Below, piece by piece: positions 1 through 41,503 of a DNA stretch of 41,503 nucleotides (position 1 is the first letter of the stretch; every line of letters begins with the position of its first letter). The position numbers and the translations under genes are program-made. Location of the stretch: positions 1 through 41,503 of the forward strand of contig CALPVV020000010.1 in the NCBI GenBank assembly GCA_943327105.2. Reading direction: 5' to 3'. Source of the DNA: Nitrosovibrio sp. Nv4 (lineage in GTDB: Bacteria; Bdellovibrionota; UBA1018; CAIMNF01). The notes beneath the pieces were generated by a model that saw nothing but the letters and a program-made list of their open reading frames with translations, had not been told where the DNA came from and made no database searches.

Positions 1-3000
1 ACCATTACCAATAGTCACAGTCGGAGTCGTATTATTTGAAGGCGATACACCAGTTAAAGTACTGGGTGCTGGGTAATAAGCAACGGTGAGGCTTGCTGCA
101 GCATTGTTGGTATTGCCCGAGCCATCAGTTGCAACACTTGCTGACACTGACAACACCATGTTCGTTTGTGCAGTAGTTGAACTTGGCGCTAGATCAAAAG
201 TATATGTAGTTCCACTTCCTGCAAAATTGGTGAGCGTCCCGTTCGTCACCGTGAGTTCATTAGATGCAAAACCTGTCACTGATTTCGAGAAGGTTACCGT
301 AACCGGAATCGCACTTGATTTAACGGTTGGGTTTTTAGGTGTAGTAATCGTTACTGTTGGTGCAGTGTTGTCGTAAACATATGCAAAACTATTTGTTGAA
401 CATGCCGAAGTATTCGTGCCATCACTGAAGTTAGCGTAATACGTAGTATTGGCACTCACCACACTTGATGTAATCGCAGCTGTTGTACCGCTCATCGCAA
501 CGGTACCCTTTGAAGTGGTACAAGATGCATCAGAAAAAAGATTTGCAGTTAATCCGGTAGCACCACTACCAACAGTCACCAACGGTGTAGTGTTATTTGA
601 AGGCGATACACCGGTCAAAGTGCTCGGCGCTGGGTAATACGCAACCGTGAGGTTTGTTGCAGCAGTATTCGTATTGCCCGAGCCATCAATTGCAACACCA
701 GCCGCTACTGACAACACCATGTTCGTTTGCGCAGTAGTTGAACTTGGCGCTAGATCAAAAGTATAAGTAGTGCCACTTCCTGCAAAATTAGTGATAGTAC
801 CGTTCGTTACCGTAAGTTCATTCGCTGCAAAACCCGTTACTGTTTTTGAGAAAGTTACGGAAATTGGAATGGCACTCGTTTTAACCGTTGGATTTAGAGA
901 AGTCGCAATCGTAACCGTTGGTGCTACATTATCGTAAATATATGCAAAACTAGCGGTTGAACAATCAGAGTAATTCGTTCCATCATAGAACTTTGCGTAG
1001 TAGTTCGAACTTGAAGAAATCGTATTTGAAGTCACTCCCACAGTCGAGCCAGTCATCACTTGTGAACCCATCACCGATGGCAATGAACAAGATGAATCTG
1101 AATAAAGATAAGCCGTTAAAGTTGCCGCACCATTACCAACCGTCACTACCGGTGTTGTATTATTTGAAGGTGAAATACCAGTTAATGTACTTGGTGCCGG
1201 GTAATAAGCAACGGTCAGGTTTGAAGCGGAAGTGTTGCTGTTTCCAGAACCATCGACAGCCACTCCGGCGGCGACTGACAATACCATATTCGTCTGACTA
1301 CCTGGACTAGTTGGTGAAAGATTAACTGTATAAATCGAACTACTAACCGCGGTAAACCCGGAAAATGAACCACTACCACTCAACGTGATTTTTGTAACAT
1401 CAAAACCTGTTACCGGTTTTGAAAAAGTTACGGTAATTGGAATTCCACTGGATCTGACTGTTGGATTAACAGGAGTAGTAATCGAAACCGAAGGTAATAA
1501 ACTGTCTAAAGAATATGAAAAACTGGCTGATGAACAAGCCGAGTAATCGGTTCCATCATAAAATTTCGCGTAGTAATTGGTACTGGTAGAAATTGCACTC
1601 GAAGTAATACCCACCGTTGAGCCAGACATTACCTGTGACCCCATTACTGATGGCAATGAACAAGATGAATCAGAGTAGAGATATGCGGTTAAACCAGTAG
1701 CACCATTACCAACAGTCACCACCGGTGTTGTATTATTGGAAGGCGATATTCCGGTCAAAGTACTTGGTGCCGGATAATAATCAACCGTGAGATTGGTTGC
1801 AGCAGTATTAGTGTTACCTGCACTATCACTTGCAACACCGGCCGCTACTGACAACACCATGTCCGTTTGAGCAGTGGTTGAAGTTGGTGCAAGATCGAAA
1901 GTATAAGTAGTTCCAGTCCCTGCAAAATTAGTAAGCGTACCGTTCGTTACGGTAAGTTCATTAGAGGCAAAGCCTGTAACTGATTTCGAGAATGTCACCG
2001 TAACCGGAATGCTACTTGATTTAACGGTTGGGTTTTTAGTCGTCGTGATCGTCACTGTTGGCGCCGTATTATCATAAACATATGCGAAACTAGCGGACGA
2101 ACATGCAGAGTAGTTTAAACCATCATCAAATGTCGCATAGTAAGTGGTACTAGCCGAAATCAGGCTTGATGAAACCCCCGCCGAAGCACCGGCCATCGGC
2201 GCCGAACCTTTTAAAGTAGTACAACTTGAATCAGAATAAATTTTTGCACTTAAACCTGATGCTCCATTGCCGATGGTTACCGTCGGTGTTGTACTGTTCG
2301 ATGGTGATACGCCAGTCAATGAACTTGGAGCTGGGTAATAAGCAACCGTGAGATCTGTTGCTACAGTATTGGCATTACCCGAGCCATCAGTTGCGACACC
2401 TGCAGCCACTGACAACAACATGTTCGTTTGAGCCGTCGCATCTGTCGGAGCAAGATCAAAAGTATAAGTCGTGCCGCTTCCTGCAAAATTGGTGAGCGTG
2501 CCGTTCGTTACCGTGAGTCCATTAGAAGCAAAACCAGTGACTGATTTAGAGAAAGTGACCGTTATTGGAATGTTACTTGATTTAACGGTTGGGTTTTTAG
2601 GTGTAGAGATCGTCACCGTAGGTGCGGTGTTATCATAAACATATGCAAAATTTGCGATAGAACAAGCTGAAGTATTGGTGCCATCACTGAAGTTTGCGTA
2701 ATACGTAGTATTGGCACTCACTGTAGTTGAGGTGATCGCAGCAGTCGCCCCACTCATCGCTGCAGTACCCTTTGAAATGGTACAAATTGCATCAGAATAA
2801 AGATTTGCAGTTAAACCAACGGCGCCATTACCAACCGTCACAACCGGTGTTGCAATATTCGAAGGTGATGTACCAGTCAGAGTGCTTGGCGCCGGGTAAT
2901 AAGCAACCGTGAGATCGGTTGCGGCAGTATTGGAATTACCAGCACTATCGTTTGCAATACCAGCTGCCAGTGACAACACCATGTTCGTTTGGGCGGTGGT

Positions 3001-6000
3001 TGAACTTGGTGCAAGATCAAAAGTATAAGTAGTGCCGCTTCCAATAAAATTAGAGAGTGAACCGTTTGTTACCGTCAATTCACTTGAGGTAAAACCTGTT
3101 ACCGATTTTGAAAAAGTTACTGTAATCGGAATCGAAGAAACCTTAACGGTTGGATTGATCGTCGTTGTAATGAGAGCCGTTGGCTGAACATTATCAAGGT
3201 TGTAATTAAAATTAGTGCTCGAACACGCTGAAGTATTGGTGCCGTCACTGAAATTTGCATAATACGTGGTATTGGTACTGACAGCACTCGAAGTTACAGC
3301 AACTGTTGCACCGGTCATTACCTGAGAACCCTTCAGTGCTGGTATCGAACAGGTCGAATCAGTATAAAGATAAGCCGTTAAACCGATTGCACCGTCACCA
3401 ACAGTAATCGTAGGTGTTGTATTATTGGATGGTGAAGTTCCTGTTAAGGAAGTTGGAGCCGGATAAAACCGAACCACTAGATTCGTGGCTGCGATACTTC
3501 CATTAGCAGAAGCATCATTAGCCACTCCTGACGCAATCGAAACTGTCATATCAGTTTGGGTGAGCGTTGAGTTCGGTGCGAGGTTAAATGTATAATTTGA
3601 ACCGGTTCCTGAAAAACTTGAAACAGTACCATTCGTGACACCAATATCACTCGCATCAAAACCCGTTACTGACTCAGAAAAAGTAACCGTGATCGGTATT
3701 GCAGATGATTTGACGGTAGGGTTTATAGGCGTAGCGATCGTCACCGTCGGTGAAACCGTATCAGACCCATTATTCATTGTGTAAGTCAAACCTGTGGTGG
3801 CACATGAAGTAGCATTGCCAGCCTGATCGGCAATTTTGTAATAAAAGGTATAATTTCCAGCGGCAAGAGCGCTTGTCGTCAGGGTAAACGAATTGTCTGA
3901 ATTAGGGTTTGAGTTTCCGCTTCCTGGAATCATTGTTGTGCCAACCGATGCGGAACAAACAGAATCAGAAAATAAATTTACGGTCGCAGCACCTTCACCT
4001 ACTCCGCTTACGATTGGCGTGGTAATTGATGAAACCGAACCGCTTGCCGGAGTCATCGACCATGAAGTCACACTCAATGGCACCACATTGTCATACTGGT
4101 AAGTCGCTGTCCCGACGCAGTTTGAAGAAACCCCGCTGATATAATCATATTTAGCGTAATAATTTTTAGATGAAGTCTGATTGCTTAATGCAATTGGTAA
4201 CTGAATGGTAGTACTGGTTGCACCAAGAGTTACCGGCGAGGAAGCCACCACAGCTCCGCTGCAGGCTACATCATTATATAGACTGACGGTTGAAACATAA
4301 GCAGGAATCGCATTTCCGGTGACTGCAAAAGTCGGCTGACTGACATTACCGATAGAACCTACCGGATTACTCAAAACAATTGATAAAGGGGTTGCATTCA
4401 AGTTCGGATTCATCGTGTAAAGCAACCCGGTCGACAAACAAGAAGACACATTTCCAGCAATGTCAGTAATGCGGTAATAAAAGCCATAACTTCCTGCACT
4501 GAGTGAGGAAGTAGATAGAGAGAATGTAGCATTTGCATTCGGGTTTAAATTACCTGAACCCGTAATCACTTTTGACCCGATCAATGTCGAACAAAACGAA
4601 TTGGTATAAAGTTGTACAGTCGCAGCCCCTTCGCCTGAGCCGGTGATTTGTACATTGGAAAGATTCGAGGTTGACCCGCTCACCGGGTTCATCGTCCAAC
4701 TGACTACATTTGCAGCAGGACTGTTGTCGTAGAGATAGGTAGCTGAACCGGTACAGGCTGAATAATTTCCTGCCGTATCTTTGAAGTTTGCAAAGTATGG
4801 AATACCAATCGTCTGATTCGGTAATGCATTAGTGAGTTGCACCGAAGTAGTTGTTGAACCAGCAACCGTTGGTGAACTGCCGACAAGACTTGCACTTCCA
4901 CATGCAGAATCACTATAAACAGAAGCCAAGATCACATTCGCGGGCAATGAAGCGCTATTTACAGAGAAAGTCGGACGGGCAAAATTTCCATACTGACTGG
5001 AAGGGGTTTTCAACGTGATCGACGTCGGAGCAATTGGAGCAACAAGATTCAAACTATAACTCAGTCCCGTTGAAGCACAACTCTTCACATTCCCGGCAAC
5101 GTCGGTGACTTTGTAAAAGAAGGCGTAATTTCCTGTGGTCAAGCCACTTAATGTTTTACTGAAAGTCGTAAATGCATTCGGATTGTTATCACCTGAACCA
5201 CTGATCACCACAGAGCCAAGCGAAGCCGAACAAGAAGAGTTACTAAACAGTTCGACAGTCGCAGCACCTTCACCTGAACCGGTAATGATTGGGTTTGCGA
5301 CATTCGAAGTTGAACCAGAAGCCGGCGTCATTGTCCAATTGGTCACTGCAGTCGGAACCTTGCTGTCGTATTGATAAGCCGCTCCGCCTACACAAGCAGA
5401 ATAATTGCCCGCACTGTCTTTCAGGTTTGCGTAGTAATTGGAGCTGACAGTTGAATCGGTCAATGCAGCTGCAACTTGTATGTTTGTCGCCACTGAACCG
5501 GTAACAGCGACAGTGCTTCCCACTGAAGTACCCGCAGCACAAGTTGCATCACGATAGAGGTAGACCATCGAGACATTCGAGGCAAGTGCTGCGGTATTCA
5601 CCCGGAAGACCGGTTGAGAAAGATTGTTCGGTGAAATAGCTGGAGACTGAAGCGTTATGGATGAAGGTGCGGATGGCCCGGTGGTATTCAACGTATAACT
5701 CAAGCCAGTGCTAAGGCACGACGATGAATTGCCTGCAATGTCGGTGATTTTATAATAAAACCCATGTACACCATCGGCAAGCACACTAGTCACCTTGGTA
5801 AACGAGGCATTTGCATTCGGATTCAAATCACCCGCACCAGAAATGACAACCGACCCAACTGAAGTCAAACAAGAAGAATCATCAAACAACTGAACCGTTG
5901 ATGCACCTTCTGCAGAAGCCGTCAAAGTGGGAGTTGCCACATTCGAGGTTGAGCCATTCGCAGGAACCATCAACCAACCTGTGGCAGCAACAGGCACTAG

Positions 6001-7068
6001 TCCATCATACTGATAAGAAGCTGAACCGGCACAGGTAGAGGCATTGCCAGCAGCATCTTTGAATTGAGCGTAATAAGAAGTTGCAACCGTAGCATTTGAT
6101 AGTGCATTCGTGATTTGCACAGACGTCGAGGTGGAACCAACCACTGGAATAGCAGTTCCAACAGAAGCACCCGAACAAGATGGGTTATTGAACAGATTCA
6201 CCTGTGCAACACCTGCAGGCAAGGCAGCGCTCGTCACCACAAATGTTGGCTTGCTGTTGTTGCCCGGCGAAATCGTAGGAACACTCAGCGCAACTGAGGT
6301 AGGAGCAGCCGGCGGAGTAACATCAACCGTATACGACAAGCCGGTCGAAGCGCATGCGCGCATGTTTCCGGCAATATCGGTGATTGAATAGGAGAAAGAA
6401 TGAAGCCCTTCACTCAAACTTGAAGTCTGCACAGTAAAAGCAGCAAGCGGATTCGGATTTAAATTCCCTGAACCAGCCACCACCTTGGTTGCAATCAAAT
6501 TGGCAGCACTACAACTCGTACCATCATAAATTCGAATGGTCGAAGCACCTTCAGCGATTCCTGAAATGCTAGGAGTTTTCAAATAGGAAGAAGAACCACT
6601 TGCAGGGTTCATGATCCAACCTGTGGTAGCCGGTGATTGGGCCGTATCTTTAATCACCTGTGATAAAGCCGTTGTTGCGGAATGACCCAGATTATCTTGA
6701 TGATCGGCAGAAATGGCGATAGGGCCATCATCAAGGGAAGAAAGATCAACCGTTGTTGACCATAATCCGCCATTGCATGAAACGGTACTAGTGAGCGTTG
6801 AACTACCAGCGACGGTTATCAATGCAGCCTGACCATTTTCACTGCATGCCCCACCCACTTGAACTGAACTGGCATTCGTTGTGTTCACGTAAGATGCATC
6901 AACCGGAACCAAAATTGAAATGAATGGTGAACTAGTTTGATTGGGACTACTGGATCCGGGTGATTGCAATAGTAATGCGTCAGGTGCATCGCGCATGTAT
7001 AAGCGCATCTGATTGCACCCAACCAAAAAGTTGGACAATATTACGAAACCCACCAATAATTTTTTCAC
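1..7068 (-). CDS. Giant Ig-repeat lipoprotein, N-terminal part (3' end outside window)
   Basis: A reading frame starts at a GTG at 7068 and stays open to base 1 in every line I checked, giving at least 2356 codons. The GTG is chosen because it follows an AGGTAG Shine-Dalgarno-like stretch and opens a lipoprotein signal: KK, a hydrophobic run, then the lipobox LVGC (Cys about residue 20). After a Ser-rich linker come two tandem repeat series: about five units of 212-213 residues (nearest the N terminus), then seven units of 187-191 residues. The second series carries the pattern FSKxVTGF, ELTVTNGT, SVAAGVATD, SGNTN, which resembles bacterial Ig-like domains of the Big_12 type found in large adhesins. 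Likely an outer-membrane-anchored surface or adhesion protein; the ligand is unknown. It lies 109 bp downstream of the yej operon but has its own promoter. No ATG start was found in this frame near the signal peptide. Confidence 0.85.
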   Translation of the reverse strand, partial: MKKLLVGFVILSNFLVGCNQMRLYMRDAPDALLLQSPGSSSPNQTSSPFISILVPVDASYVNTTNASSVQVGGACSENGQAALITVAGSSTLTSTVSCNGGLWSTTVDLSSLDDGPIAISADHQDNLGHSATTALSQVIKDTAQSPATTGWIMNPASGSSSYLKTPSISGIAEGASTIRIYDGTSCSAANLIATKVVAGSGNLNPNPLAAFTVQTSSLSEGLHSFSYSITDIAGNMRACASTGLSYTVDVTPPAAPTSVALSVPTISPGNNSKPTFVVTSAALPAGVAQVNLFNNPSCSGASVGTAIPVVGSTSTSVQITNALSNATVATSYYAQFKDAAGNASTCAGSASYQYDGLVPVAATGWLMVPANGSTSNVATPTLTASAEGASTVQLFDDSSCLTSVGSVVISGAGDLNPNANASFTKVTSVLADGVHGFYYKITDIAGNSSSCLSTGLSYTLNTTGPSAPSSITLQSPAISPNNLSQPVFRVNTAALASNVSMVYLYRDATCAAGTSVGSTVAVTGSVATNIQVAAALTDSTVSSNYYANLKDSAGNYSACVGGAAYQYDSKVPTAVTNWTMTPASGSTSNVANPIITGSGEGAATVELFSNSSCSASLGSVVISGSGDNNPNAFTTFSKTLSGLTTGNYAFFYKVTDVAGNVKSCASTGLSYSLNLVAPIAPTSITLKTPSSQYGNFARPTFSVNSASLPANVILASVYSDSACGSASLVGSSPTVAGSTTTSVQLTNALPNQTIGIPYFANFKDTAGNYSACTGSATYLYDNSPAANVVSWTMNPVSGSTSNLSNVQITGSGEGAATVQLYTNSFCSTLIGSKVITGSGNLNPNANATFSLSTSSLSAGSYGFYYRITDIAGNVSSCLSTGLLYTMNPNLNATPLSIVLSNPVGSIGNVSQPTFAVTGNAIPAYVSTVSLYNDVACSGAVVASSPVTLGATSTTIQLPIALSNQTSSKNYYAKYDYISGVSSNCVGTATYQYDNVVPLSVTSWSMTPASGSVSSITTPIVSGVGEGAATVNLFSDSVCSASVGTTMIPGSGNSNPNSDNSFTLTTSALAAGNYTFYYKIADQAGNATSCATTGLTYTMNNGSDTVSPTVTIATPINPTVKSSAIPITVTFSESVTGFDASDIGVTNGTVSSFSGTGSNYTFNLAPNSTLTQTDMTVSIASGVANDASANGSIAATNLVVRFYPAPTSLTGTSPSNNTTPTITVGDGAIGLTAYLYTDSTCSIPALKGSQVMTGATVAVTSSAVSTNTTYYANFSDGTNTSACSSTNFNYNLDNVQPTALITTTINPTVKVSSIPITVTFSKSVTGFTSSELTVTNGSLSNFIGSGTTYTFDLAPSSTTAQTNMVLSLAAGIANDSAGNSNTAATDLTVAYYPAPSTLTGTSPSNIATPVVTVGNGAVGLTANLYSDAICTISKGTAAMSGATAAITSTTVSANTTYYANFSDGTNTSACSIANFAYVYDNTAPTVTISTPKNPTVKSSNIPITVTFSKSVTGFASNGLTVTNGTLTNFAGSGTTYTFDLAPTDATAQTNMLLSVAAGVATDGSGNANTVATDLTVAYYPAPSSLTGVSPSNSTTPTVTIGNGASGLSAKIYSDSSCTTLKGSAPMAGASAGVSSSLISASTTYYATFDDGLNYSACSSASFAYVYDNTAPTVTITTTKNPTVKSSSIPVTVTFSKSVTGFASNELTVTNGTLTNFAGTGTTYTFDLAPTSTTAQTDMVLSVAAGVASDSAGNTNTAATNLTVDYYPAPSTLTGISPSNNTTPVVTVGNGATGLTAYLYSDSSCSLPSVMGSQVMSGSTVGITSSAISTSTNYYAKFYDGTDYSACSSASFSYSLDSLLPSVSITTPVNPTVRSSGIPITVTFSKPVTGFDVTKITLSGSGSFSGFTAVSSSIYTVNLSPTSPGSQTNMVLSVAAGVAVDGSGNSNTSASNLTVAYYPAPSTLTGISPSNNTTPVVTVGNGAATLTAYLYSDSSCSLPSVMGSQVMTGSTVGVTSNTISSSSNYYAKFYDGTNYSDCSTASFAYIYDNVAPTVTIATSLNPTVKTSAIPISVTFSKTVTGFAANELTVTNGTITNFAGSGTTYTFDLAPSSTTAQTNMVLSVAAGVAIDGSGNTNTAATNLTVAYYPAPSTLTGVSPSNNTTPLVTVGSGATGLTANLFSDASCTTSKGTVAMSGTTAAITSSVVSANTTYYANFSDGTNTSACSTNSFAYVYDNTAPTVTITTPKNPTVKSSAIPVTVTFSKSVTGFASNELTVTNGTLTNFAGSGTTYTFDLAPSSTTAQTNMVLSVSASVATDGSGNTNNAAASLTVAYYPAPSTLTGVSPSNNTTPTVTIGNG
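140..3760 (-). repeat. Seven tandem units of 561-573 bp (Ig-like, series A)
   Basis: A conserved block (GACAACACCAT and variants on the plus strand) recurs at 149, 710, 1277, 1850, 2411, 2972 and 3539. The spacings are 561, 567, 573, 561, 561 and 567 bp, all multiples of three, so the frame is kept. Each unit encodes one Ig-like module plus a partner module with a Cys near SDSSC and another near YSDC. Near-identical DNA between neighbouring units makes unequal recombination plausible. The array may continue beyond base 1. Confidence 0.85.
3770..6640 (-). repeat. Five tandem units of 636-639 bp (Ig-like, series B)
   Basis: A block encoding YFYKxTDxAGN recurs with one Tyr codon at 3838, 4474, 5113, 5752 and 6388, that is, spacings of 636, 639, 639 and 636 bp, all in frame. 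Each unit holds two sub-modules, the second beginning with a YxYD-like stretch. The units are more diverged from one another than series A and differ from it in sequence, so the protein was built from two separate duplication histories. Confidence 0.8.
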
Positions 7069-7083
7069 AGTCTACCTGTATAA

Positions 7084-7130
7084 ATTATCGGTTGTTTTGG
7101 AATTTTCCGTAATGTGTCCAACCCGACACA
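7084..7130 (-). promoter_or_regulatory. Promoter with GTGTC-N6-GACAC palindrome for giant lipoprotein
   Basis: The palindrome TGTGTC-N6-GACACA occupies 7113-7130. On the minus strand it is followed after exactly 23 bp by a GATAAT -10 hexamer (7089-7084). Predicted transcription starts near 7077, leaving a leader of only about 9 nt before the GTG at 7068. The same arrangement lies upstream of 22705 and 41372. The palindrome centre would be near -44, typical of a class II activator site. Confidence 0.6.
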
Positions 7131-18094: not shown

Positions 18095-21000
18095 TTACGG
18101 ATTCAAGTATTCAGCCACACCCGCAAGACTGTTCTGAAGATAAGGGAACAAAAGCCTACGGTCACTTGGTGAATTCTCGTAGTACACCATCGATCGACCG
18201 TTGCATTTCATTGTCGAGATCGGCCAATCGAGTACCGAATCGATACCGGTGACAATATTCTTTTTGTGAATCTTGTAATCGACTGTACTGCAATAATAAG
18301 CAACATGACTCGAAGCTGTGTGCACATACGCAAATGACGATGCATTATCATTAAAAGTCGTGATGGTACTGACCAATCCTCCAGTACCTTCTTCCATTCC
18401 TCGAAGGGCATTGGTGCCTGGTTTCATCACTGCCCACCTAGCTGGCGAAGTGAAGGTATCATAAGTAGATCGATTATAACGTGGCGATCCGGTGGCTTGC
18501 GGCACCACACAGTTTACAGTGAGTGTTCCATCTGAACAAAAATAATAAGTAGGTGTGACCGAGTTCAAATCAGCCGCCAAATGCGTTTGCAGTCCGTTCG
18601 TGATTGCATATTTCTTAAGATATCCGTAATGCATGTTTAAAGTGGTTTCGCTGGTATAACCCCCAATCGCCGCTAAAATGTTATTGCCATCAAACCCAAT
18701 TACTTTCGGAGCCTCCCGACTTGAACCAACAATCAAACTTCCAATCAAATTATCGGCCTGCGAGTAATAAGTTGAACCACCCCCCATCAAATCAACCCAC
18801 TTTCCAGTAATACGGTCAAGCTTGGCAATATTGCCAAATCGGGCATAAAACACGTCTCCGCTTGCTGGATTAATCACGAAGTCGTCAAAATTAGCTCCCC
18901 AACCATTCAATACTTGAATCGGCTGAGTTGTGGCCAGCGATGAAGTGTTTTGGCCTCCATTCAAGCCGGTACCTGCGATGGTTGAAACGATTCCAGATGG
19001 TGAAATAGATCTGAACTTATATTCATTCACATCTAGAACCACGAGCTCACCCGAGGTTGCTCGGTCAAAGTTATTAATCAGATTGAAACGTGCCGACAAT
19101 GCATTACCGCCGTCACCATATGAAAGATTTTGTCCCAGGATTGTCCTAACCTGATTCGATACCTTATCGACGATTCTGATTACACCGCGGTCCATGAAGT
19201 AAATGTTTTCTTGTTCGTCCACAAATAAATCATTGATGTCGATTTTACAAAGTAGTGCGTCTGTACCATCCGCACAACTTCCAACTCCCGCACCTGCACC
19301 AAGAACGGGAGTCCAATCATTGATCGTATTATTGTATTTCCAGGCACGGCCAGTCCATCGATTCATGGTATAAACTTCTCCGTTTCTGGCAGAAACTCGA
19401 TAATTATACCCGGCTTCAGTAGGTGCATTGGGTATTCGAGTCGACATTGAAACGCCACTAGGATCAAGCGTAGCCAAGCCACTTAAATCACAAGCACTCG
19501 TCGCACTAGAATTCGAATCCTGAATGAGAATCATGAAACGGTCTATCACTGAGTTGGCCGGATTAAACCTGACACCACCCACGCTGAAATAGCAATCGGC
19601 GATATTTTGGGTCAAATACCCATTGATCCCGATACCACTTGGAACAATATTTCGAATCACATTATTGACAGAATCATAACGACTGATTTTTCCGCCCGAT
19701 GCACCCGCGGAAGGATTCGCTTGCCAGGCATTATTTGTAAAATACAAATCACCATTCGGAACTGGAACAAGCCAAGGCATTTTCGAACCATTTGAATTGA
19801 TATTCCCAGGATAGATGAGCTGATAATTCAATGGTAAGGTATTATCCGAACTCTGAGATCCACCACCGATGATGGTTTCGACAGTCATCGGATTCAATTG
19901 GGTGTTGATACGGCGAATTTTGTTATAATCCCAAACCAATATACGGTCTTGATAATCAAGAGCGATTTTCAATGGCTCTTTCAGAGTTGCTGAAGAAATT
20001 GATCCATCAGTCATCGTACCCGTAGTTCGAATCAAGAGCGTTTGACGATTTCCATCACCCGGACTCACCATGATAATTCCCCTGGTTAGGTCACGATGAT
20101 AGATCACTCCATTTTTGGCGACTACCAAACTTCCAGCATCAGCATAGTAAGACTGTGATTGTGACGGATAAAACACAGCAGACTTCGCGCTTGAACCCAG
20201 ACCTGAATCCGTATTACCCGCTACAAACTTGAAGATCCCAGAGGTATTGATTGCTTGAGAACTAGAAAAAGAAGTGATGTTGTCAGAGTCCTTAACGGAT
20301 ACACGAATTCGAAAATAACCAGCCGTCGGTGAACCATTGGTCCAAGCGTAACATCCGGTATCATTGTCATCTGCAGTCGTAGCAGCATTATTGATGGAAC
20401 AAGTTCCGTTCACTCCATTACTAAGATTGTTTGCGAATTCGGTAAAAATCGAATCATCGGTAGTATAAGAAAGAGTAACCGGGGTTGACGGCAAGGAATC
20501 ATCCTGAATCTTCCACTTGATGATCACACTACTTCCCGCCCCAATCGTTAGCTGGCTTGCCGAAGGTGGCGAACTGGGTGCATCCGTATTCGTTGCGAAA
20601 ATATCGGTGATGACGGGTGCGGTACCCGGTATGATGGTGATCGTGGCCTTGTCTGTGGCAACTGTTCCTGTTCCTGAATTGGTCAGTGACGAGATGTTAC
20701 CAGCAGCATCCATGACCCACGCGTAAACAGTGTACGAAGAGGGCAAAAAACCTACTGCGTAATTAAAATCAACAAGGTTCAAATTTTTAGAAAGTGTCAA
20801 CCCCGGCGACGGGGCATTCACTGAAATCCAACAATTTGAAGAAGCTGATGGCGCTACATTGCTCACGTAATTGAGACAAAACTTAGAAACATTCGAAGTC
20901 AGATCTGTAGCCTGAAGAGAGAGATTCAAATAGTTGTTACCTGTTGAAGCTGCCCCACCGTTCAACAACATTGAAGATGCCGTCATCACCGGTGCTACGG

Positions 21001-22705
21001 TATCAATCAACATCGATGAAGAACAAGCTGATACCGAAGTATTGCTAGCGGTATCGGTCGAAGTGATGCGATAGCTATAAGTGACGGCGTTAGTACCACT
21101 GAAAGACTGAGTCTGTACCGAATTCGATAAACTGATTAAAGAACCGGCCTCTGTACCAACAGCACAACTTGAACTGGCAAAGAATTGAATTTTTTGCGTA
21201 CTTAAATCAGTTGAAACTGACTTAACCCATGCTGCAGTCACCGAATTTGCATTGAATGGCGATGACTGTGACCACCCCAGTGTTGCAGGTATGGCTGGCG
21301 GAGTAACATCAACCGCAATCAACGATGAACATGCGCTTGAGGTGTTGCCTGCATGATCAATCGAAATCAACTGATATGAATAGCCTTCACCATCAACTCC
21401 GATCAAATTCTGACTTTGCTGCGTGTTTAAAAGACTGACCAGTCCGCCTTTTTCGCTACCGGCATTACAACCACTTCCATTATAAAATTGTATTTTTTGA
21501 CTTCCTAAATCACTGGATGAAGATTTCACCCAAGTTGCATTTACCGATAATGAATTAGCTGGCGATGAATTCGCCCATGATACCGATGTCGCAGCACTTG
21601 GCACCATTACATCCCGAGTGATGCTCACCGCTGTTGAAGTCGTTGAATTTCCAGCAGCATCTGAAATGGTCGCAGCCAAAGAATGACTGGCTTGAGTCAA
21701 TACGGTTGAATTGATCGTTCCACTAAAGAGCACTCCCGTACAAGTCGCTGTTCCAACGATCGTACCATCTGACTTGATGGTAACCGTTCTTCCAGCCTCA
21801 CTACAACTCCCCATCACCTGAAAGGCTGTTGAATCATTTGCAAGATTTACCCAAGAACCAACTCCAGGTGAAGAAATTACAATAACTGGTGCAGTAGTAT
21901 CAACCACCATGGCATTCGAACAGGATGAATCCACTTCGTTTCCCGCCTGATCGATCGAAGTTAATTTGAATGAATAAGTGCTGCCATCAACAACATTCAA
22001 TGCTTTAGAAGTTAAAACAGTAGAAGCAAGGTCAATCGAAGCACCTGAAGAGATGCCGCAAACCGCATCAGAATAAAACTGAATTTTTTGATTCGTCAAA
22101 TCACTTGCGATTGACTTAGCCCATGAAGCCGTAATGCTGGTGCCTGAATACGGTGTAGTCTCCAGCCATGAAATGCCTGAAGCTGCAGCAGGTAAAACTG
22201 TATCGAGAGAAATCAGATTTGCAAATCCAGTCGCCCCACTCAGTGAATTGCCTCCGTCAACATCAGGCAATACGGTGATTGCCTCTGTCCCTGAAACACT
22301 TTTTATTTTTCCTGAATTCAAATCAAGTGCCGAGCTGGAAGCATAGTCAAGCTTTGAAGTGGCATCGGTCGTCCCCACCGTATAATCAAACGTAATTTCA
22401 CTGGTGCCTGAACCACTCGAGTAATCGATTGTTTTTTGGGGAGTCACATTCAATTCAAGCTTAGGGACACCAATGACCACTACCGGTTCTGAAAAATTAA
22501 GAGTGATTGGAATCACGGTGCCGGCCTTATAGATTCCGCTCGCTTTCGTGGTTGTCACTCTGTTCACTTTTGGGATCGTAATTTTTTTTGCTCGAACCAT
22601 CCCAACAATGTTGGGAGAACAGCCTGCCAACACCGTACTCAATGCGGCTAAGTAAAAAAAACAGCAGTAAGTATTTACTGATTTAAATACCTTTGAGCAG
22701 AACAC
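18095..22705 (-). CDS. Large lipoprotein with Ig/FN3-like modules and NHL-type propeller
   Basis: A 1536-residue protein from a GTG at 22705. The GTG is chosen because a GGGGGG stretch precedes it, it begins a lipoprotein signal ending in the lipobox LAGC, and an upstream in-frame ATG at 22738 lies before the -10 box. The N-terminal half has a domain starting FSEPVVVIGVPKLELNV, then several FN3/Ig-like modules of the form SWxxSSPxNxxSVTAxWxKSxSxDLxxQKIQFY, each ending in SIDxAGN and a Cys-Ser motif. From about residue 825 to the end there are NHL-like blades (YPSQSQSYYADAGSLVVAKNG, GDGGNALSARF, VSTIAGTGLNGG). A surface-exposed outer-membrane lipoprotein is likely. Shares its promoter layout with the giant lipoprotein at 7068. 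Confidence 0.83.
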   Translation of the reverse strand: MFCSKVFKSVNTYCCFFYLAALSTVLAGCSPNIVGMVRAKKITIPKVNRVTTTKASGIYKAGTVIPITLNFSEPVVVIGVPKLELNVTPQKTIDYSSGSGTSEITFDYTVGTTDATSKLDYASSSALDLNSGKIKSVSGTEAITVLPDVDGGNSLSGATGFANLISLDTVLPAAASGISWLETTPYSGTSITASWAKSIASDLTNQKIQFYSDAVCGISSGASIDLASTVLTSKALNVVDGSTYSFKLTSIDQAGNEVDSSCSNAMVVDTTAPVIVISSPGVGSWVNLANDSTAFQVMGSCSEAGRTVTIKSDGTIVGTATCTGVLFSGTINSTVLTQASHSLAATISDAAGNSTTSTAVSITRDVMVPSAATSVSWANSSPANSLSVNATWVKSSSSDLGSQKIQFYNGSGCNAGSEKGGLVSLLNTQQSQNLIGVDGEGYSYQLISIDHAGNTSSACSSLIAVDVTPPAIPATLGWSQSSPFNANSVTAAWVKSVSTDLSTQKIQFFASSSCAVGTEAGSLISLSNSVQTQSFSGTNAVTYSYRITSTDTASNTSVSACSSSMLIDTVAPVMTASSMLLNGGAASTGNNYLNLSLQATDLTSNVSKFCLNYVSNVAPSASSNCWISVNAPSPGLTLSKNLNLVDFNYAVGFLPSSYTVYAWVMDAAGNISSLTNSGTGTVATDKATITIIPGTAPVITDIFATNTDAPSSPPSASQLTIGAGSSVIIKWKIQDDSLPSTPVTLSYTTDDSIFTEFANNLSNGVNGTCSINNAATTADDNDTGCYAWTNGSPTAGYFRIRVSVKDSDNITSFSSSQAINTSGIFKFVAGNTDSGLGSSAKSAVFYPSQSQSYYADAGSLVVAKNGVIYHRDLTRGIIMVSPGDGNRQTLLIRTTGTMTDGSISSATLKEPLKIALDYQDRILVWDYNKIRRINTQLNPMTVETIIGGGSQSSDNTLPLNYQLIYPGNINSNGSKMPWLVPVPNGDLYFTNNAWQANPSAGASGGKISRYDSVNNVIRNIVPSGIGINGYLTQNIADCYFSVGGVRFNPANSVIDRFMILIQDSNSSATSACDLSGLATLDPSGVSMSTRIPNAPTEAGYNYRVSARNGEVYTMNRWTGRAWKYNNTINDWTPVLGAGAGVGSCADGTDALLCKIDINDLFVDEQENIYFMDRGVIRIVDKVSNQVRTILGQNLSYGDGGNALSARFNLINNFDRATSGELVVLDVNEYKFRSISPSGIVSTIAGTGLNGGQNTSSLATTQPIQVLNGWGANFDDFVINPASGDVFYARFGNIAKLDRITGKWVDLMGGGSTYYSQADNLIGSLIVGSSREAPKVIGFDGNNILAAIGGYTSETTLNMHYGYLKKYAITNGLQTHLAADLNSVTPTYYFCSDGTLTVNCVVPQATGSPRYNRSTYDTFTSPARWAVMKPGTNALRGMEEGTGGLVSTITTFNDNASSFAYVHTASSHVAYYCSTVDYKIHKKNIVTGIDSVLDWPISTMKCNGRSMVYYENSPSDRRLLFPYLQNSLAGVAEYLNP

Positions 22706-22727: not shown

Positions 22728-22773
22728 ATTATCGGCAAGAGTCATACTTTTGTGAATGTGTCCGGAATGACAC
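22728..22773 (-). promoter_or_regulatory. Promoter with GTGTC-N6-GACAC palindrome for large lipoprotein
   Basis: The palindrome GTGTC-N6-GACAC lies at 22758-22773. On the minus strand GACACATT is followed, 23 bp after GACACA, by a GATAAT hexamer (22733-22728) in the context CCGATAATxTATA, as at the 7068 promoter. The site overlaps the stop codon of the upstream gene (22773-22775). Predicted transcription begins near 22721, 16 nt before the GTG start. Confidence 0.62.
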
Positions 22774-23960
22774 TATTTCAGCGCATCTACAACAAGTGCG
22801 GTCTCATGAATCACACGCTGGGAAATAATCGGGTCTTTTCCGAAATAACCGAATGCTCTCATGCGATCGGTTTGAAAAGGGTTGACCGAACGGTTGCTTA
22901 AATCAATTCCGCCAGCAACGCCTGATGATTGAATTCCAAAGCGGTCACTTGAAAATTCTCGTGCCCAATCCCAATTCGGATAATTTTTTTCACCCCAAAG
23001 CCTTACCGTCTGGGCAAGGTGACAGCTAACGCAATCAGCGGTACCCGGATTATGAATGCGCGGATTTTCAAGTTGAATTGCACGACGAATGATCGATTTG
23101 ATTGCAGGCTCCTGTTCTAGTTCTCGATAGCGAGCAGAATCGGAAGTCAATCGCATGAACGGTCTTTCGTTTTTCGGTAGATAACTGATACCGCCATTGA
23201 ACTCTTCGAGGTTTTGCAATCCTTCCGGCTGAAGAAAAAAAGATTGTGACGTCAGCTTCGGTTCAAGATCAAGTGTTGGGATTTTAATCATCGACCATCC
23301 GGTTGCCGTGCGATCAAGACCCATGAAATGCCAGACCCGGTCCATCCGAACGGTCATCGCTGTAACTCTGATCAAATTCTGTTCACCACAATAGCGAAGC
23401 AACAATGTGCTGAGGGTCTTCCAATAGTTTCCGCGATAACCTTCAGCGCGAAGATTCGGTTGTACATCAAGCGCTGAACCAAGCGAGTAGCTAATGCCGT
23501 TTTTCAACGCTGATTTCAATTCAGAAACAATCATCGTCCATTCGGCATCATTGAATTCATGAAAGGTATGAATCGCAGTATCGAGAGACGTGACGTGATC
23601 CCCCACCACCACCAGAGGTTGCCAAACAAAACGAATTTGAGGACGGCATCGTCCCGGGGTGACACCTTCACCGAAACACGGATCAAATCGCACGCCGATG
23701 ATTTTAAGATTATAGCGATAAAGCTGTTCCTGATCGGCACGATCTGAAAGCAGTGGTAAAAAGCGAAATACCGAATAAGGCATCAGTTCACCTTTTGTAC
23801 CTGACGAAATCGGCGACAAGAGCTGGTTGAATTCCTGAGGTGAAGGTAGTGGCAAGAGCTGGGAAACTTCATTCATACCCAGGCCTGAAGCAAAACCAAC
23901 CGAACCGATCATGAATGCAGAGAGAAAAAGAATGAAGAAAACCCGAGAAAAACAAATCAT
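22773..23960 (-). CDS. Secreted protein with single c-type haem motif
   Basis: A 395-residue protein with an N-terminal signal peptide (VFFILFLSAFMIGSVGFA) and one CVSCH haem c binding motif at residues 310-314, so a periplasmic or surface c-type cytochrome is plausible. I do not recognise the family of the rest; other conserved-looking features are paired Cys (FDPCFGEGVTPGRC), a central WHFMGLDRT stretch and a C-terminal GYFGKDP. The ATG is preceded by GGGAG and by a 21 bp palindrome that fits a Fur box. The CVSCH motif is the firmest functional clue; an electron-transfer or peroxidase-like role is possible but unsupported by more motifs. Confidence 0.7.
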   Translation of the reverse strand: MICFSRVFFILFLSAFMIGSVGFASGLGMNEVSQLLPLPSPQEFNQLLSPISSGTKGELMPYSVFRFLPLLSDRADQEQLYRYNLKIIGVRFDPCFGEGVTPGRCRPQIRFVWQPLVVVGDHVTSLDTAIHTFHEFNDAEWTMIVSELKSALKNGISYSLGSALDVQPNLRAEGYRGNYWKTLSTLLLRYCGEQNLIRVTAMTVRMDRVWHFMGLDRTATGWSMIKIPTLDLEPKLTSQSFFLQPEGLQNLEEFNGGISYLPKNERPFMRLTSDSARYRELEQEPAIKSIIRRAIQLENPRIHNPGTADCVSCHLAQTVRLWGEKNYPNWDWAREFSSDRFGIQSSGVAGGIDLSNRSVNPFQTDRMRAFGYFGKDPIISQRVIHETALVVDALK

Positions 23961-41235: not shown

Positions 41236-41275
41236 CCCTCAACTGAATGAGTAAAAATCAATTTGAATCAGCTCA

Positions 41276-41321
41276 ATGTCAGAAGTGACACAATTGAAAA
41301 TAAAATATGCTGAATTAGAAT
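41276..41321 (+). promoter_or_regulatory. Third GTGTC-N6-GACAC-type promoter, before small secreted protein
   Basis: ATGTC-N6-GACACA lies at 41276-41292, one mismatch from the palindrome at the two lipoprotein promoters. A TAGAAT hexamer begins 23 bp after GACACA (41316-41321), the same spacing as the other two. The predicted transcript starts near 41328, leaving about 44 nt before the ATG. Confidence 0.5.
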
Positions 41322-41371: not shown

Positions 41372-41503
41372 ATGAGAGCGATTTTTTTCATGATGTCATT
41401 GTCGATGTTTATTGCGAGTTCAACTTTTGCAGTTCAAGAGAATGGGGGTTCAGTATCCAAAGGAGAATGTAAGGGAGACGGCTCCTACCCAAAAACCAAC
41501 CAA
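41372..41503 (+). CDS. Small secreted protein, partial (3' end outside window)
   Basis: 44 codons are visible. AGGGGA precedes the ATG by about 9 nt. The residues MRAIFFMMSLSMFIASSTFA form a signal peptide with a likely SPase I site before VQENGG. The start of the mature part is hydrophilic, rich in Gly, Ser and Lys, with one Cys (KGECKGDGSYP). No family is recognised. It resembles the protein at 32267 only in being small, exported and hydrophilic. Confidence 0.7.
   Translation, partial: MRAIFFMMSLSMFIASSTFAVQENGGSVSKGECKGDGSYPKTNQ

Follow-up and report, generated by a model that had tools for sequence, protein, structure and literature searches.

A palindromic promoter element associated with lipoprotein genes in an order that appears to include Bdellovibrio

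Three genes for exported proteins within a 41,503-nt stretch of DNA (hereafter the window) begin downstream of similar palindromes, each followed by a -10-like hexamer, which raises the question of whether they represent a common promoter class, what this class controls, and which kind of protein reads it. The three palindromes described in the initial annotation were all found where it had placed them, and the gap of 23 bp that it had measured from GACACA to the hexamer was the same in sites 1, 2, and 3 (GATAAT, GATAAT, and TAGAAT, respectively). The sequence over and after the -10 that it had assigned to sites 1 and 2 only, CCGATAAT-N-TATA, was also present in both, and the genes following these two sites (1-7068 and 18095-22705) do encode giant lipoproteins, as it had claimed. 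The sites and their parts are:

7113..7130, minus strand: site 1, TGTGTC-N6-GACACA, 0 mismatches, putative dimer-binding site at about -53 to -36
7107..7112, minus strand: -35 position of site 1, TTACGG, 17 bp from the -10
7084..7089, minus strand: -10 of site 1, GATAAT after CC, 23 bp past GACACA
1..7068, minus strand: giant lipoprotein gene of at least 2356 aa that extends past the contig edge, with lipobox VGC and Big_12 repeats
22757..22774, minus strand: site 2, AGTGTC-N6-GACACA, 1 mismatch
22728..22733, minus strand: -10 of site 2, GATAAT, 23 bp past GACACA
18095..22705, minus strand: giant lipoprotein gene, 1536 aa from the GTG at 22705, lipobox LAGC
41275..41292, plus strand: site 3, AATGTC-N6-GACACA, a weaker palindrome
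41316..41321, plus strand: -10 of site 3, TAGAAT, 23 bp past GACACA
41372..41503, plus strand: gene start with an N-terminal signal-peptide-like stretch (by eye), truncated where the contig ends

At site 2, the palindrome overlaps the end of gene 22773-23960, which lies upstream, and the Big_13 match of the gene at 18095-22705 lies below the Pfam cut-off. Site 3 is a weak match with 4 mismatches (hand count) to the combined palindrome + N23 + GATAAT pattern, and was therefore missed by the genome-wide search with that pattern. Counted in the window only, the palindrome was not in excess at ≤2 mismatches (14 found, 15.7 expected), and no Rfam match was obtained.

The picture is different for the assembly as a whole (2,308,231 bases in 137 contigs, 92% complete), in which TGTGTC-N6-GACACA with ≤1 mismatch occurs 16 times, while the control, the same pattern read backwards, was not found at all. 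The palindrome + N23 + GATAAT pattern (≤3 mismatches) gave 12 sites in this genome and 0 in the controls. Among the 16 palindrome sites, which were selected with no condition on the -10, GATAAT starts 23 bp past GACACA in nine and 24 bp past it in one; when both directions of every site were read (32 directions), GATAAT was absent from all other offsets between 6 and 43, with one further occurrence at offset 4. The comparison set for GATAAT as an ordinary -10 consisted of 72 palindrome-free upstream regions, some of them picked by the sigma28 pattern. No tRNA was found in the 15 stretches scanned.

The consensus of the 12 combined-pattern sites is TGTGTC-N6-GACaCA-TT-N20-C-GATAAT-NT, in which the TT and the C before GATAAT lie outside the search pattern. 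The two bases of the TT are conserved in 12/12 and 11/12 sites, respectively, and coincide with positions 1 and 2 of a -35 hexamer that would be separated from the -10 by 17 bp; these are the only strongly conserved bases of the -35 position in the sites of this genome. Assuming a transcription start 7 bp beyond the -10, the palindrome would extend from -53 to -36 and be centred at about -44.5, in agreement with the earlier estimate of near -44. The layout resembles the class II type, at a fixed distance and directly against the -35 and -10. In six genomes of the same genus (60 of the 67 listed sites covered: G010, 17/17; G003, 7/7; G009, 14/14; G011, 14/14; G004, 6/9; G006, 2/6), the hexamer is of the sigma70 type, TANNNT, and was counted 15, 12, and 8 times at offsets 23, 24, and 25 over 120 directions, against a mean of 2.8 per offset and a next highest count of 7, at offset 19. 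The spacing peak is therefore clear in the genus, and it is thin outside the family, where the 26 directions of 13 exact sites gave TANNNT 2 times at 23, 0 times at 24, and 4 times at 25.

Downstream genes were classified by a lipobox or signal peptide in ORFs starting 20-170 bp from the site in either direction, and were compared with pseudo-sites placed 50 bp upstream of gene starts in this genome (window included) and in relatives across the order. Lipoprotein genes follow 9/16 sites of this genome vs 2/59 intergenic gene-start controls (Fisher p 4e-6), and 21/60 same-genus sites vs 9/117 intergenic controls (Fisher p 1e-5), although the sites of sister species are not independent because they are partly orthologous. 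For exported proteins of either kind, the corresponding figures are 12/16 vs 24/59 (Fisher p 0.02) and 40/60 vs 32/117 (Fisher p 8e-7), and random points gave 176/1500. With all gene starts as the control, exported genes amounted to 48/139 and 56/246 and lipoprotein genes to 9/139 and 16/246. Judging from these comparisons, in this genome the lipoprotein signal is strong and the general-export signal is modest; the signal-peptide rule is crude, as 24 of the 59 intergenic controls of this genome were themselves called exported, and the target rule overlooks some lipoproteins. The targets are richer in lipoprotein genes than gene starts are, and the chance comparison that the initial annotation had called for, run here as exported genes downstream against random points and gene starts, left its proposal standing. 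No exported gene was found downstream by the rule at 4/16 sites of this genome and 20/60 same-genus sites. Outside the family, an ORF with a lipobox or signal peptide follows 10 of 13 exact sites, a figure that has no separate control.

More than half of the sites in this genome precede giant lipoprotein genes: giant genes follow 9/16 sites, with products of 1365, 1387, 1389, 1397, 1432, 1536, 1875, at least 2265, and at least 2356 aa. Ig-like or propeller domains (Big_6, Big_7, Big_12, Big_13, DUF5122, TEN_NHL, or Rax2) were found above the Pfam cut-offs in six of the nine giants, the other three showing weaker matches only. Two other sites precede genes of 164 and 240 aa, and an extra site with 2 mismatches (C28) precedes a gene of 681 aa. 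The putative regulon consists largely of exported proteins, which would presumably face outwards, and it is larger and wider than could be seen from the window in which a surface-protein regulon was proposed.

Several loci deserve mention in their own right. Two paralogous giant lipoproteins of 1397 and 1389 aa with near-identical N-termini are encoded near each other at L231 (G000:C29, 688-9261), each behind a palindrome promoter of its own. One site of this genome, L013 (G000:C74:9148-9165), is followed by a dksA/traR-family gene, and such a gene is preceded in four same-genus genomes (L013, L247, L281, and L293) by a conserved, one-sided form of the site, TGTGTC-N6-AACACA, with the TGTA-type hexamer at a distance of 23 bp; Pfam zf-dskA_traR was tested in this genome only. 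At L226 (G000:C48, 534-551), L237, L256, L258, and L287, the site has as its neighbour a short conserved gene (without a Pfam match in this genome) near fliA, which is about 0.5 kb off in four genomes and about 3 kb off in G010. In four of these five cases a small gene judged by eye to be Flp-type-pilin-like starts on the other side, and a similar gene was seen at L011 in this genome. In another family, a GGDEF gene (cyclic-di-GMP synthase type) has its start 130 bp away from an exact palindrome at L110 (G020) and 112 bp away at L112 (G024). At L260 (G009:C16:4526, minus direction), an ORF of 97 aa, ArsR-like by eye, begins on the opposite side of a palindrome that precedes a lipoprotein gene. 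A further GACACAC-YCC element, perhaps an extra half-site, occurs just before the -10 at several sites of G002, G008, and G011 (e.g., GACACACCCCTTATAGGAT), and 3/8 of the listed sites of G047 have GCGTTGACTCAAAAAGAAT before and over the -10 position.

The palindrome was counted in 58 genomes, namely 55 of the order, 13 of which belong to the family of the window, and three from other families of the class. At ≤1 mismatch it occurs 674 times in the order vs 69 for the backward-read control, and 156 vs 13 times in the family. Family f3 showed no enrichment in the four genomes counted (9 vs 2 in total; 1, 3, 3, 2 vs 0, 2, 0, 0), these being small numbers, and neither did the order members G022 (2 vs 5), G033 (2 vs 2), and G042 (6 vs 5) or the three genomes taken from other families of the class (6 vs 3 in total; 2, 1, 3 vs 1, 1, 1). 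A metagenome-assembled genome (MAG) labelled Bdellovibrio sp. ZAP7 has a contig that includes a 2,145-base stretch of G046, and we therefore take the order to be Bdellovibrionales; the order thus appears to include the predator Bdellovibrio, with the name resting on one label. An exact scan of named genomes, from which this genome was possibly left out, gave three matches vs about two expected by our estimate, one in a Bdellovibrio sp. ZAP7 MAG; the other two, in MAGs with the labels Bacteroidales and Bacteroidetes, we take as chance.

We consider it fairly probable that a dimeric activator reads the 18-bp palindrome against the -35 of a sigma70-type promoter and controls a regulon made up largely of exported proteins. 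The putative dimer would bind TGTGTC-N6-GACACA directly abutting the -35 position, and, because the palindrome adjoins this position, a dimer centred at about -44.5 could touch RNA polymerase, probably its sigma subunit. Such a contact would assist the polymerase, in the class II manner, at promoters whose -35 is poor. The promoter architecture is of a known kind, that of a class-II-like activator promoter. Accounts of what the initial annotation had proposed must be divided at this point, as its promoter layout and surface regulon were upheld, while its reader, a protein of the CRP/FNR family, was not.

Could the same site be a repressor operator that lies against the -35 and silences the surface lipoproteins until they are needed? 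A palindrome abutting a promoter is indeed in the usual location of an operator, but a repressor needs no exact distance to the -10, whereas nine of the ten GATAAT sites of this genome are at 23 bp and the same-genus spacing peaks at 23-25; a fixed distance is needed for polymerase contact and not by a repressor, which favours an activator and leaves repression unlikely. Slightly less likely again is that the sites are sigma28 (FliA) promoters with the -10 box CCGATAA and an additional upstream activator site, a weak rival that is compatible with the activator and would change the sigma factor only. Bdellovibrio attack-phase promoters carry TTAAG-N16-CCGATA (PMC3627812), and the GATAAT of this genome resembles their CCGATA box: C precedes GATAAT in 9/12 sites and CC in 5/12, and among 69 other entries from the family CC precedes the hexamer in 5/18 with GATA vs 6/51 without. 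FliA is also encoded, with a family match above the cut-off in 54/58 genomes including this one (C48, 266 bits). Nevertheless, this genome shows no excess of TTAAG-N16-CCGATA (37 matches with ≤1 mismatch vs 51 for the backward control, 3 of the 37 being palindrome sites), so that this promoter class was not detectable there, and the same-genus genomes have a sigma70-like TANNNT at the same place. The final T of the hexamer is invariant in the 12 sites, although the search pattern favours T. The promoter would probably be read by a sigma70-type factor.

As for the protein reading the palindrome, CRP half-sites are TGTGA-N6-TCACA, FNR half-sites are TTGAT-N4-ATCAA, and the class II centre is at -41.5. 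The class-II-like geometry and the one HTH_Crp_2 protein encoded in this genome (C18, 228 aa) speak for a CRP/FNR-family reader, as does MrpC, the CRP relative of Myxococcus xanthus, which reads a similar half-site in TGTYN8RAC (PMC4320627). Nevertheless, we find such a reader improbable. The gap between TGTC and GACA is N6 rather than N8, and the consensus of this genome does not have the half-site and gap of known CRP-family proteins. Close orthologues of C18 are confined to the genus (9 of 11 other genomes, 64-81% identity), with one more at 39% identity in G029; G003 has only a 23% match, and none was found in G006 or in G012, which represents the other genus of the family. HTH_Crp_2 exceeds the cut-off in 26/58 genomes and is thus not present wherever the site is enriched: G016 (22 sites, 4 contigs, 96% complete), G018 (14 sites), G020 (17), G036 (18), and G051 (21) have no match above the cut-off, and neither do the less complete G037 (16), G046 (21), and G050 (23). 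Conversely, the outgroup G055, unenriched for sites, has one. Because matches below the cut-off (E ≤ 0.01) occur in most genomes, with some match in 53/58, a very divergent CRP-like HTH is conceivable. A LuxR/FixJ-type response regulator such as GacA, whose box TGTAAG-N6-CTTACA has the same overall 6-6-6 plan, is hardly credible, since no GerE domain was found in this genome at E ≤ 0.001, which refutes it as far as a 92%-complete assembly allows, and GerE is present in only 23/58 genomes. Clustering of 394 ORFs from site loci brought out no regulator gene recurring beside the sites; apart from CRP, its two largest clusters consisted of repeat lipoproteins and of genes accompanying the CRP loci. 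A Pfam scan covered 90 of 111 flanking ORFs. The 21 left out by hand were for the most part large repeat lipoproteins, short ORFs, and ORFs nearly identical to others, plus one permease and the second of the GGDEF genes. In the 25 families listed out of 67, the scan gave no DNA-binding regulator except the sigma factor gene rpoD beside L001. No regulator was present among the 27 window ORFs scanned. The palindrome is probably read by a protein that is neither CRP/FNR- nor LuxR/GacA-like.

The promoters described here resemble the class II CRP and FNR promoters of Escherichia coli in having a dimer palindrome that overlaps or abuts the -35 at a fixed distance from the -10, but differ from them in the half-site (TGTGTC, not TGTGA or TTGAT), in the centre (about -44.5, not -41.5), and in that many site-bearing genomes have no CRP/FNR HTH above the cut-off. 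The nearest published site that we encountered is that of MrpC, a dimer site with TGTC-like half-sites that is bound at hundreds of promoters (PMC4320627). It has a gap of 8 instead of 6, and MrpC is a CRP-family protein, whereas CRP-family proteins are not conserved with the sites here. The site of DigR from Myxococcus, TAATC-N14-GATTA (PMC3509222), does not fit the palindrome. The FliA attack-phase promoters of Bdellovibrio bacteriovorus share the CCGATA -10 with some sites of this genome and include cell-surface proteins among their targets, but the sites here lack the conserved TTAAG and have the extra palindrome (PMC3627812). For the non-FliA attack-phase promoters of B. bacteriovorus, that paper reports no strong motif, and its motif figure covers 50 bases upstream of the starts, so that a palindrome like the present one would be cut (PMC3627812). 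Among the matches listed in the open-licence literature, we found no report of the motif, the regulon, or the order-wide spread.

Promoter control outside sigma28 is little mapped in the order that seems to include Bdellovibrio (PMC3627812). We regard it as evenly poised whether the surface lipoproteome of predatory and related bacteria is governed, through TGTGTC-N6-GACACA, by an unrecognised master activator that predates the families of the order. In this reading, lineages would continue to bring new giant adhesin-like lipoproteins under its control, in places also cyclic-di-GMP, pilin-like, and dksA-family genes, and f3 would have lost the system or never had it. The search for the regulator is thereby made concrete, as its gene would be expected in the site-rich families and be absent or changed in f3. 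With the palindrome as a simple signature in the DNA, surface proteins that are possibly turned on as a group can be sought.
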